Shown here piece by piece: positions 10,593 to 19,518 of a stretch of DNA of 21,246 nt (position 1 is the first letter of the stretch; every line of letters starts with the position of its first letter). Position numbers and translations under genes: made by a program. The notes under the pieces are model-generated. The model ran no database searches, was not told where the DNA came from, and worked only from the letters and a program-made list of their open reading frames with translations. This DNA comes from a virus, in the IMG/VR virus record IMGVR_UViG_3300008267_000479, positions 1 through 21,246 of that record; one strand, written 5' to 3'.

Positions 10593-11276
10593 TTATAATG
10601 TTTTAAGCATTGCTATTAACTTAGGTTGAGGAGATACATCTGTCTTATCTTTTCTATAAGAGTTATGTGTATACACTCCTGGTTCTGCTTTAAGAGCTTC
10701 ATAGGAAACATTCCACATTTCCTTCTCATTATACGTAAGTGGAATACCATGTATTTTTCCCCAATATACAAGCAATTGTCTTACAGATTCTATCTGAGCA
10801 TCTGTATAAGCATGATAGTATTTATGACCTTTGTAGGGAACTGCAAGTTCACATACTTGATCATTGGGTACTACTCTATCTACATAGTTGTAATACTTAC
10901 CATCTGCTTTTTGAGTTAATGGTCCCCAGTTGCATATCTCAATTCCTATTGCAAGTGGATCTAATAATCTATATGGTAATCCTTGAGCTCTAAATACATC
11001 AGACTTAACTCCTAAATGATATGCCCATTTCTTAGATGAAAATGCTTGACAGATTTCACCATCAAATGTATCTTTAGAAAGACCTCTACCAGATATAACT
11101 ACACATGTGGCAATACGACCTCTGTCATCAGCATTCCACATTTTAATTGTACCAGGAGCAGAAGAATTTCCTGCTGTATGATGTAGTACAATCTGTACTT
11201 TTTTAGTATCCTCATTTACATACTGTCCTTCCGAAAGAGGTACTTGTTTTATCTTTTTAAGATCTAGTTCAGCCAT
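10593..11276 (-). CDS. N-acetylmuramoyl-L-alanine amidase (endolysin, Amidase_2 type)
   Basis: Cuts the bond between MurNAc and L-Ala in peptidoglycan to release progeny. 227 aa, a single Amidase_2/PGRP-like domain. Visible features: IVLHHTAGNS at 29-38 with the zinc His (32/33), YHLG at 86-89, IGIEICNWG at 110-118 with Glu113, and near the end VYTHNSYRKDKTDVSPQP with His204 and Asp213, which complete the zinc site as His/His/Asp. There is no signal peptide, so it needs a holin to reach the wall, and a holin-like gene lies about 500 bp upstream in the same unit. Start is joined by TAATG to the 99-aa gene. Size is normal for a single-domain amidase without a wall-binding domain. Confidence 0.93.
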   Translation of the reverse strand: MAELDLKKIKQVPLSEGQYVNEDTKKVQIVLHHTAGNSSAPGTIKMWNADDRGRIATCVVISGRGLSKDTFDGEICQAFSSKKWAYHLGVKSDVFRAQGLPYRLLDPLAIGIEICNWGPLTQKADGKYYNYVDRVVPNDQVCELAVPYKGHKYYHAYTDAQIESVRQLLVYWGKIHGIPLTYNEKEMWNVSYEALKAEPGVYTHNSYRKDKTDVSPQPKLIAMLKTL

Positions 11277-16627: not shown

Positions 16628-16828
16628 TTAACCTACCAATAAGCCTAAAAGAAATCCTATAACTACCATAGCAATAATTACAGCATGTGCAATCTGTCTT
16701 CCTTCAGAATCTTCTTGCCACATATTAGACATTTTATTATATATAGGTTTACTAAATGCATTTTGTACTAAAAACAAAATAGCAATAGCAATAAGTCCTA
16801 TAGTAAAAAGTATACCTTTGAGTATCAT
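16628..16828 (-). CDS. small membrane protein with two helices
   Basis: 66 aa. Hydrophobic helix at about 3-23 (ILKGILFTIGLIAIAILFLV), a hydrophilic middle (KPIYNKMSNMWQEDSEGRQI) and a second helix at 48-66 (AVIIAMVVIGFLLGLLVG). No lipobox or family recognised. It overlaps the DUF3310 gene by 4 bases and is last in its unit, just before the terminator. With the holin-type genes 5 kb away in another unit, a lysis role is not implied; a membrane-bound helper or superinfection function is equally possible. Confidence 0.68.
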   Translation of the reverse strand: MILKGILFTIGLIAIAILFLVQNAFSKPIYNKMSNMWQEDSEGRQIAHAVIIAMVVIGFLLGLLVG

Positions 16829-17136
16829 AAACTGTCAATTCTTCTCTGTAAATATACTAAAGCTTTTTGTAAATCCTCTTTTTTTGTAGAAATATTTTTC
16901 TTACCTGCTCTAGCTAAGTACTTGACTACGTTGCCTAAATAGAAATCCTGATCTAATTCCCAAGCTTCTAAAACACTGAATACTTCATAAGTATTATCCT
17001 TACCACCATAGTATTCAGGTCTTGGTCCTTCATCCAGTATAACCACTCTTTTAGAAAGATCTATAGGAGTTAATGCTGCACCCATCTCTATTGCTGTTGG
17101 GCAACAACCATCTTTTTTATCCTCAGCCATTACCAA
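16825..17136 (-). CDS. DUF3310 family protein
   Basis: 103 aa. The family core is clear: PEYYGG at 40-45, then EVFSVLEAWELDQDFYLGNV and VKYLARAGKKN at 71-81, and a closing helix EDLQKALVYLQRRIDSL. DUF3310 proteins are common, small phage proteins of unknown biochemical function, sometimes seen fused to or beside nucleotide metabolism genes. The first 38 residues, with a CC pair (GCCPTAIEM), precede the family core. It overlaps the co-chaperonin gene by 7 bases and the membrane gene by 4. Start could be Met1 or Met3. Confidence 0.85.
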   Translation of the reverse strand: MVMAEDKKDGCCPTAIEMGAALTPIDLSKRVVILDEGPRPEYYGGKDNTYEVFSVLEAWELDQDFYLGNVVKYLARAGKKNISTKKEDLQKALVYLQRRIDSL

Positions 17137-17423
17137 ATAATAACTACATCACCTTCATTAAGGACAAGTTTAACTTCTCCATCAATATCAATTCTTTCTA
17201 CAACTTCCATGTTTAGAGAAGCTGTACGAATGTATACTTGGTCTCCCTCAGATATTTCTTCCACCTTGTCCCCTACTGCATATACTGTAAGTTTATTCCA
17301 CATCTTTATAGCTTCTGCCATAATCATGTCTTCATCCTTTGCACTTAACTGGATCCCAGAATCTTTTCTTTTTGGAACATCTAGCAAAATTGCTCTTCCT
17401 CTTAGTTTTTTAAATGGTTTCAT
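17130..17423 (-). CDS. GroES-like co-chaperonin
   Basis: 97 aa, the normal GroES length. The alignment to Cpn10 is clear in order: RGRAILLDVPKRKDSGIQLS at 8-27, where the GIQL tetrapeptide corresponds to the GIVL of the GroES mobile loop that docks on GroEL; KLTVYAVGDKVEEISEGDQV at 44-63, like the VLAVG and GD parts of GroES; and NEGDVVIIW at the end, like the closing strand. The stretch 28-43 (AKDEDMIMAEAIKMWN) is an insertion or a different loop. As with T4 gp31, it may replace host GroES to fold the capsid protein; that is inference. Start forms TAATG with the gene upstream. Confidence 0.72.
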   Translation of the reverse strand: MKPFKKLRGRAILLDVPKRKDSGIQLSAKDEDMIMAEAIKMWNKLTVYAVGDKVEEISEGDQVYIRTASLNMEVVERIDIDGEVKLVLNEGDVVIIW

Positions 17424-18189: not shown

Positions 18190-18414
18190 TTATTTTCCAA
18201 TTGTACTATCTATCCTTTTTCTTAAATCTCTACCAAAGGTAATATTACTTTTAGCTCTTATTTCTTTGTGAGTAAACTGCCAAAACTCCCCTGTCTCACT
18301 AATGATCACAGTGTATATAGTATCTGTTTCATGCCCGTAGTCTGTTACTAACCAAATAAACCCCGGTCCTTTTGGTGTATTGACTTCTATCCTATTTGTT
18401 GGTTCATATATCAT
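18190..18414 (-). CDS. small beta-barrel-like protein (SH3/KOW-like)
   Basis: 74 aa. Beta-rich: RIEVNTPKGPGFIWLVTDYG, then IYTVIISETGEFWQFTHKEI, then RAKSNITFGRDLRKRI. The pattern of a TPKGxG turn, alternating hydrophobic strands, and a Gly-Glu hairpin leading to EIR is that of small SH3-like barrels, as in KOW or DUF-type phage proteins. A role in binding nucleic acid or protein partners is possible but not shown. It overlaps the transferase-like gene by 11 bases and is followed by an empty 51-base stretch and the terminator at 18112-18138. Confidence 0.7.
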   Translation of the reverse strand: MIYEPTNRIEVNTPKGPGFIWLVTDYGHETDTIYTVIISETGEFWQFTHKEIRAKSNITFGRDLRKRIDSTIGK

Positions 18415-19078
18415 ATCCTATAATTTTAATTTTCTCATCTCTTTCAACTAGCTGCTTGTATAACCCTACATCAGTAGACCATTCTTGACCAGTCCAGAAT
18501 TCAAATCCTGTGTAGTTAGATTTATACTCACAGCACTTTTCATATCCACCTAAGAGATACACATACTCACAACCCAGGATCTTGGCAGTCTCACATTCAT
18601 AGTACTGAGCTACGGTACCTAGAGATAATTTAGGGTCTTCATAATTCCATATAAACTGATAAGCCACAAACTGTTTCTCAAACACTCTATATATACTTAT
18701 ACCTACAAGTTTATCAGTATGATATTCTATAATCTGACAGTCTTTGAAAGACTCTAGTTTAATATCTCTCTTAAATCCATGGTACTTACAGTATTGCTCA
18801 TGGAGCTCTTCATATGCTTCTTGATGTCCTACTATATCTCCTATGACTACATTAACCTTTTTGGATAATTTCTTTGTAGTCTTACTAGGTTGATAAATAC
18901 TTAGATCTAATCTAGTACTACGTTCATTATACCATTTACCTTCCCACGGTATCCACCCAGATTTTATTGCTTCTGTAGGAGATTCATGTGGTTCAAGGAT
19001 ACCATAAGCTTTGTTCACTATAACCTCTAAATCACTGACTTTACCAAAGCCCTCTATATGATCAAAGTATATTTTCAT
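18404..19078 (-). CDS. GNAT-fold protein resembling the C-terminal domain of arginyl/leucyl-tRNA-protein transferases
   Basis: 224 aa. Residues 100-205 match the pattern of ATE1/Bpt transferases, which move an amino acid from tRNA to a protein N-terminus: FIWNYEDPKLSLGTVAQYYE at 142-161, AKILGCEYVYLLGGYEKCCE at 165-184, and YKSNYTGFEFWTGQEW at 185-200. The SLGT, LGxxYxYLG and YK-x(4)-GFEFW elements are the most telling. The N-terminal Cys cluster of cellular ATE1 is absent; residues 1-100 are unlike it. So tRNA use and N-terminal aminoacylation are a hypothesis; a general acyltransferase is the alternative. It overlaps the metallopeptidase-like gene by 4 bases. Confidence 0.66.
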   Translation of the reverse strand: MKIYFDHIEGFGKVSDLEVIVNKAYGILEPHESPTEAIKSGWIPWEGKWYNERSTRLDLSIYQPSKTTKKLSKKVNVVIGDIVGHQEAYEELHEQYCKYHGFKRDIKLESFKDCQIIEYHTDKLVGISIYRVFEKQFVAYQFIWNYEDPKLSLGTVAQYYECETAKILGCEYVYLLGGYEKCCEYKSNYTGFEFWTGQEWSTDVGLYKQLVERDEKIKIIGYDI

Positions 19079-19518
19079 TTCTTAAAGAACCCTTTCTTAG
19101 GTTGTTCTTTGGTATTAAACCCTAACTTATCAATTATCTTGTTAGCTTGTTCTTCAGCATAACTAATTGCCTCTTCTTCCTTGTCCTTGATGTTCCACTT
19201 ATTTAGTAACAAACTCATATGCATAGTCTCATGCATAACAGCTGTTGCTTTTTCTGTAGGGGAATACTTGGTAAAAGTACCCATGTTCAAAAACAAGAAA
19301 GGTTTGTTGGGTGCCTTTGCAGTAAGTTTCTTATCAGCCGGATCATAGTTAGTCCACCCATAAATATAAACTCCGTTACCAACAGTCTTATCTACTTCTT
19401 CTGCCTGAGCATCATTACGGTTGAGACCATGCATCTCTTCTACATCATAGTAATCAAAGATCTCGGTAGCATTCTTACCTATAAGGAGTACATACTCCCC
19501 CATGTCTATCTTTTTCAT
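19075..19518 (-). CDS. HExxH metallopeptidase-like protein
   Basis: 147 aa, no signal peptide. Residues 90-125 carry the zinc protease motif HETMH (96-100) in a helix (EKATAVMHETMHMSLLLNKW), followed by a Glu-rich helix KDKEEEAISYAEEQANKII, where Glu115 or Glu116 could be the third zinc ligand as in gluzincins. The start is alpha/beta (MGEYVLLIGKNATEIFDYYD) and 60-85 are beta (KPFLFLNMGTFTKYS), compatible with a minimal protease fold. The C-terminus is basic (KEQPKKGFFKK). Substrate unknown. It overlaps the transferase-like gene by 4 bases (ATGA type), so both are translated together. Activity is inferred from the motif alone. Confidence 0.75.
   Translation of the reverse strand: MKKIDMGEYVLLIGKNATEIFDYYDVEEMHGLNRNDAQAEEVDKTVGNGVYIYGWTNYDPADKKLTAKAPNKPFLFLNMGTFTKYSPTEKATAVMHETMHMSLLLNKWNIKDKEEEAISYAEEQANKIIDKLGFNTKEQPKKGFFKK

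Follow-up and report, generated by a model that had tools for sequence, protein, structure and literature searches.

The window analysed here, a stretch of viral DNA of 21,246 nt, comes from a freshwater crAss-like phage. The large terminase encoded in it matches PHROG 6681 (E 1e-57) and has about 25% identity with the terminases of gut crAss-like and Flavobacterium phages. We examined three adjoining ORFs, which are present as the preliminary description had stated and all lie on the minus strand. The first (19075-19518) encodes an HExxH protein of 147 aa, a putative zincin-type metallopeptidase. The second (18404-19078) encodes a homologue of ATE1/Bpt-like aminoacyl-tRNA-protein transferases of 224 aa, subsequently referred to as the ATE-like protein. 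The third (18190-18414), downstream of the ATE-like gene, encodes a small conserved partner of 74 aa that is strand-rich by sequence pattern. The HExxH and ATE-like genes share the four bases ATGA, the overlap that had been noticed before, and the start codon of the small gene is located inside the end of the ATE-like gene, with an overlap of 11 nt in the window. In all three genes dN was far below dS (for the ATE-like gene, dN/dS was roughly 0.1-0.3 against five relatives), and they are therefore under purifying selection.

The same run of short genes also contains, as context only, genes for a GroES-like co-chaperonin (17130-17423, minus strand; PHROG 3188, E 1.6e-5) and a DUF3310 protein (16825-17136, minus strand; Pfam, 42.2 bits). 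The GroES-like gene belongs to this neighbourhood whether or not an ATE-like gene is present. Cpn10/GroES-like and HSP20 genes could be observed near ATE-like genes in both clades described below (L215:7563-7895, L237:1001-1423 and the window gene at 17130-17423). An N-acetylmuramoyl-L-alanine amidase gene at 10593-11276 of the window (Amidase_2, E 1.7e-9) is a likely lysis gene.

One motif scan placed relatives of the ATE-like protein on 226 viral contigs, another, overlapping scan on 199. They belong to two sequence clades, to which we gave the names "freshwater" and "marine": members of the freshwater crAss-like clade are about 55-95% identical to the window protein, those of the marine groups about 30-40%. 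Two scans of cellular genomes returned no relative, both being based on motif patterns that divergent members would escape, and there was none in about 50,000 records of isolated phages. The human faecal phage record MT837240 was considered as a carrier and dismissed, as its weak match proved to be an aldolase-like ORF. The search with defence-system models gave no match.

A remote homologue of ATE1 and Bpt

The preliminary description had noted a C-terminal ATE1/Bpt signature, and this assignment is well supported: Pfam, NCBIfam, profile-profile, PDB-sequence and fold evidence all point to a transferase of the ATE1/Bpt type. The ATE_C domain (PF04377) scores 32.1 bits in the window protein, above the cut-off of 25 (E 2e-7), and is matched by 47 of 47 diverse relatives at E<=0.1. 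Among NCBIfam models, the Bpt "arginyltransferase" models were the top matches in all four phage proteins scanned. Their scores stay far under the equivalog cut-offs (31.5 versus 252 bits for the window protein, 42.3 versus 170 for L198), which indicates remote homology to Bpt rather than orthology. When PDB chains were searched with the family profile, ATE1 was found at E 4e-7, while the sixth and last match had an E value of 0.23. An hhalign comparison of the family with four Bpts, which like all Bpt sequences compared here were taken from retrieved records, gave a probability of 97.3% (E 2.8e-11) over residues 53-202, so that the end of the N-domain is included in the match. The Leu_Phe_trans family was not matched; a Pfam scan at E<=5 returned ATE_C and Acetyltransf_6 only.

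The AlphaFold model of the ATE-like protein (pLDDT 89.8) is in line with these results. Human ATE1 (8tzv) was the best match both in Foldseek (E 6.1e-9) and in VIA, where residues 1-216 of the model gave a Z score of 14.8 with 210 aligned residues and an rmsd of 4.3, at about 14% identity in the structural alignment. Yeast ATE1, MprF, FemX and L/F-transferase followed in the Foldseek and VIA matches. Since GNAT acetyltransferases also reach VIA Z scores of 11-14 against the model, the fold by itself is not decisive. The protein might thus be an ordinary acyl-CoA-dependent GNAT acetyltransferase that resembles ATE1 by chance; RimI and other acetyltransferases align well too, and there is a weak Acetyltransf_6 match (E 0.039 in the window protein, E<=0.1 in 15 of 47 members). 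However, true Bpts match Acetyltransf_6 as well, and both in sequence searches and in Foldseek ATE_C and ATE1 rank above the acetyltransferases. The donor loop does not contain the acyl-CoA motif [QR]xxGx[GA], which has a single stray occurrence elsewhere, in L196, while the basic helix of the ATE type is kept. We therefore regard a chance resemblance as quite improbable.

The ATE-like protein has a GNAT core with ATE_C, a basic helix at about residues 64-76 and a C-terminal YKxxYxGFEFWTGxxW motif. In the sequence alignment, residues 60-77 correspond to the segment of Bpt and yeast ATE1 that starts the tRNA acceptor-stem helix. The aligned part of yeast ATE1 (residues 109-119) is located inside region 109-146, which contacts the tRNA acceptor stem (PMC10115844). 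Among 47 members, this stretch contains on average 6.5 K or R and 1.2 D or E residues, and a median of 1% of sequence windows are more basic. Judged by its sequence, the phage family retains a tRNA-compatible basic helix.

Thirty residues are invariant in all 47 diverse members. They include F5, H7, G41, W42, R53, R56, Y96, L151, G154, E161, Y174, Y179, E180, Y185, K186, the GFEFWTG patch (191-197) and W200. The equivalent of E161, acidic in every member, is D277 in S. cerevisiae ATE1 and E in K. lactis, while the four Bpts carry Q, L, H and H at this position.

ATE_N (PF04376) was not matched by any of the 47 phage family members in the Pfam search, whereas two true Bpts match the same model with 79 and 82 bits. 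The metal-binding cysteine cluster is missing as well: the 47 members have no Cys column in common, and in 16 of them the N-terminal part is devoid of Cys. Both features matter for the activity of eukaryotic ATE1 (PMC9884297, PMC10115844).

The lost metal site would fit a catalytically dead decoy, a protein that binds charged tRNA or the N-degron machinery of the host as a blocker. Phage proteins often mimic host factors. But the 30 invariant columns, including E161, E180, K186 and GFEFWTG, are preserved across families that are only 30-40% identical, which indicates a conserved active site and makes a dead decoy very unlikely.

With bacterial Bpt (aspartate/glutamate leucyltransferase, annotated as arginyltransferase, PRK01305), the phage protein thus shares the ATE_C core, a similar length, SLG and YLGY-type motifs, the basic helix before the GNAT core and the YKxx(Y/F)xxxE...W end. 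It differs from Bpt in the missing ATE_N domain and Cys metal site, the remoteness of its score, the acidic E161, the GFEFWTG end and, in the freshwater clade, the small partner gene. Eukaryotic ATE1 is its best structural match over nearly the whole length and has the basic tRNA-contacting helix and, in yeast, the acid at position D277 in common with it, but the CxxC...CC metal site is absent from the phage protein, which has half the size of ATE1 or less. L/F-transferase (Aat), FemX and MprF/L-PGS are aminoacyl-tRNA-using enzymes of the GNAT fold and significant Foldseek matches to the phage model. They show no sequence-family match; both FemX (about 335 residues) and MprF exceed the phage protein in size, and MprF is a membrane protein. 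Because the tests for the N-domain, the metal site and an equivalog-level score all came out negative, the phage protein should not be filed as an orthologue of either Bpt or ATE1.

The conserved gene pair and its neighbours

Gene neighbours were counted in 81 contigs of the window's own clade that carry the ATE-like gene; near-identical phages recur among them, so these contigs are not fully independent. The end of the ATE-like gene is visible in 79 contigs, and in 77 of them a small gene of 65-74 aa directly follows; in 61 of these 77 the small-gene match begins before the ATE-like match ends. In three contigs (L194, L195 and L197), the two genes are found together at another genome position, flanked by a PD-(D/E)XK nuclease gene and the terminase region, and no HExxH gene accompanies them. 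The ATE-like gene and the small gene behind it thus form the conserved unit, which moves as a cassette. The small protein has a mean column identity of 72% among 11 members. It gave no Pfam or NCBIfam match, its PHROG matches were sub-threshold and no confident PDB relative was found. The small beta-barrel proposed in the preliminary description is a candidate fold read from the sequence pattern. The small gene also occurs without the ATE-like gene (L112, L113, L114 and L116; in L116, it lies at 10617-10850, one short gene after the HExxH gene) and may therefore have a role of its own.

The HExxH motif of the upstream gene (19075-19518) is real and not a chance occurrence, since 19 relatives all retain H96, E97, H100 and E115; the last of these would be the downstream acidic third ligand. 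The model of this protein (pLDDT 75) found no significant Foldseek match. Weak structural matches (Z 2.1-3.4) include jannalysin, YbeY, Ste24p and MATCAP, several of which are zincins, and the protein is likely a small metallopeptidase.

The preliminary description had proposed that transferase and metallopeptidase form one module in which one enzyme trims and the other tags protein N-termini. The transferase part of this proposal is well supported; a conserved trim-and-tag unit is not supported. Of 72 contigs with an ATE-like gene, 38 have the HExxH gene immediately upstream of it, and 54 of the 77 contigs that carry the HExxH gene have no ATE-like gene. Conversely, at least 23 contigs with 3 kb or more of upstream DNA have the ATE-like gene but no HExxH gene. 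Conservation of the pair across phages, the proposed check, thus showed that the two are not fixed partners, a place taken instead by the small gene; the HExxH gene is a frequent but separable neighbour and not a required part. A protease that exposes a new N-terminus, which the ATE-like enzyme then tags, could be read from the 4-nt overlap in the window and from the frequency of the arrangement. An independent pairing was seen in the marine phage L211, where a gene for a SprT-like HExxH protein (2266-2568) lies just downstream of a divergent ATE-like gene. Nevertheless, the many contigs with only one of the two genes and the relocation of the ATE-like gene and the small gene without the HExxH gene make such a division of labour very improbable, and we would give it hardly any weight.

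The preliminary description had also suggested targeting for degradation, and here the evidence is indirect. A ClpS gene scoring over the Pfam cut-off is present in 8 of 21 contigs with the ATE-like gene, all of them among the 15 that belong to the clade of the window. Its distance from the ATE-like gene, calculated from contig positions, is typically about 10-14 kb. Residues equivalent to N34 and D35 of E. coli ClpS are invariant in the phage ClpS proteins, and the equivalent of H66 is found in 9 of 11. ClpS proteins of 84-86 aa are encoded in the window's clade with or without an ATE-like gene (L290-L297, L285-L289). As a strict partner, ClpS had to be dismissed: it also occurs in 3 of 8 contigs longer than 55 kb without the ATE-like gene and in two shorter ones, most records being fragments. 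ClpS is therefore lineage-wide context rather than a coupled gene. Its presence in these phages lends the suggestion indirect support, which is weakened by its occurrence where the ATE-like gene is missing. The 21 contigs contained no ClpP gene. For jumbo phages, ClpS has already been pointed out as a probable adaptor to host ClpAP (PMC7824862); the ClpS genes described here differ in that they belong to crAss-like phages, some of which also encode the ATE-like enzyme.

A tRNA-Arg(UCU) gene, a candidate donor partner, was rejected on similar grounds. It is found at 14 of 81 loci with the ATE-like gene (27 of which have more than 6.5 kb of upstream sequence; e.g. L013, L025, L045 and L051) and at 9 of 55 loci of relatives without it (20 with such upstream sequence). 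Being as common in one group as in the other, it is a lineage trait.

The marine members have different neighbours. In large marine phages, an AdoMet_dc (SpeD) homologue (Pfam, E 1e-10) is encoded just upstream of the ATE-like gene (L251:5600-6004 and L264:5615-6004, both with a 4-nt overlap, as well as L246, L255, L261, L266 and L268). Some SpeD homologues of phages are ornithine or arginine decarboxylases (PMC10407285). In most marine members, a gene of PHROG 3704 (labelled ferredoxin; about 211 aa, E 8e-55) is located immediately upstream, often with a 1-nt overlap (e.g. L214:932-1567, L209:5360-6001 and L260:5329-5997; about 45 marine loci).

These differing neighbours leave room for an acceptor other than a protein. 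The same chemistry could be directed at a target other than a protein N-terminus destined for degradation: a side chain of a virion protein, the small partner, an amine of a lipid or peptidoglycan-like kind, or a modified nucleobase. FemX, MprF and L/F-transferase, which share the fold and occur among the structure matches, would be precedents, and a change of acceptor is also suggested by the missing ATE_N metal domain. However, it is ATE1 that matches best over the whole length, and ClpS co-occurs in many freshwater members. We consider a different target somewhat unlikely.

Possible function in N-degron tagging

The reading we favour, to which we assign about as much belief as doubt, is that the ATE-like protein is an aminoacyl-tRNA-dependent transferase which, together with its small partner, tags protein N-termini, and that the product is handed to ClpS and ClpAP for destruction. 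The basic helix would grip the acceptor stem of a charged host tRNA, and the active site in the GNAT fold would take the amino acid from the tRNA and move it to an amine, most likely a protein N-terminus. The small protein might act as a partner that is probably stabilising or substrate-selecting and replaces the lost metal-binding N-domain of ATE1. The tagged product would be a secondary N-degron, with host or phage ClpS as its reader and host ClpAP as its destroyer. Among these steps, we infer the use of tRNA, the donated amino acid, the acceptor, the role of the partner and the degradation outcome from the homology, the fold and the gene context described above.

A broader proposal goes further. 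Some crAss-like phages might encode both a writer (the ATE-like protein with the small protein as specificity factor) and a reader (ClpS) of an N-degron and act via host ClpAP against chosen host or defence proteins, the writer being a metal-free and so far virus-only branch of the ATE/Bpt enzymes. Taken as a whole, we regard this scheme as unlikely.

In the open-access literature, we found no published ATE/Bpt-type transferase in a phage. For a virus family that covers both crAss-like and marine phages, such an activity would mean that phages tap the pool of charged tRNAs for protein tagging. It would also provide an example of an ATE-type enzyme that functions although it lacks the metal site required by eukaryotic ATE1, and the little-known bacterial N-degron pathway would become testable as a route of phage takeover. 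With an ATE-like tagger and ClpS, the adaptor that reads such tags, phages may steer the protein-degradation tags of their hosts.
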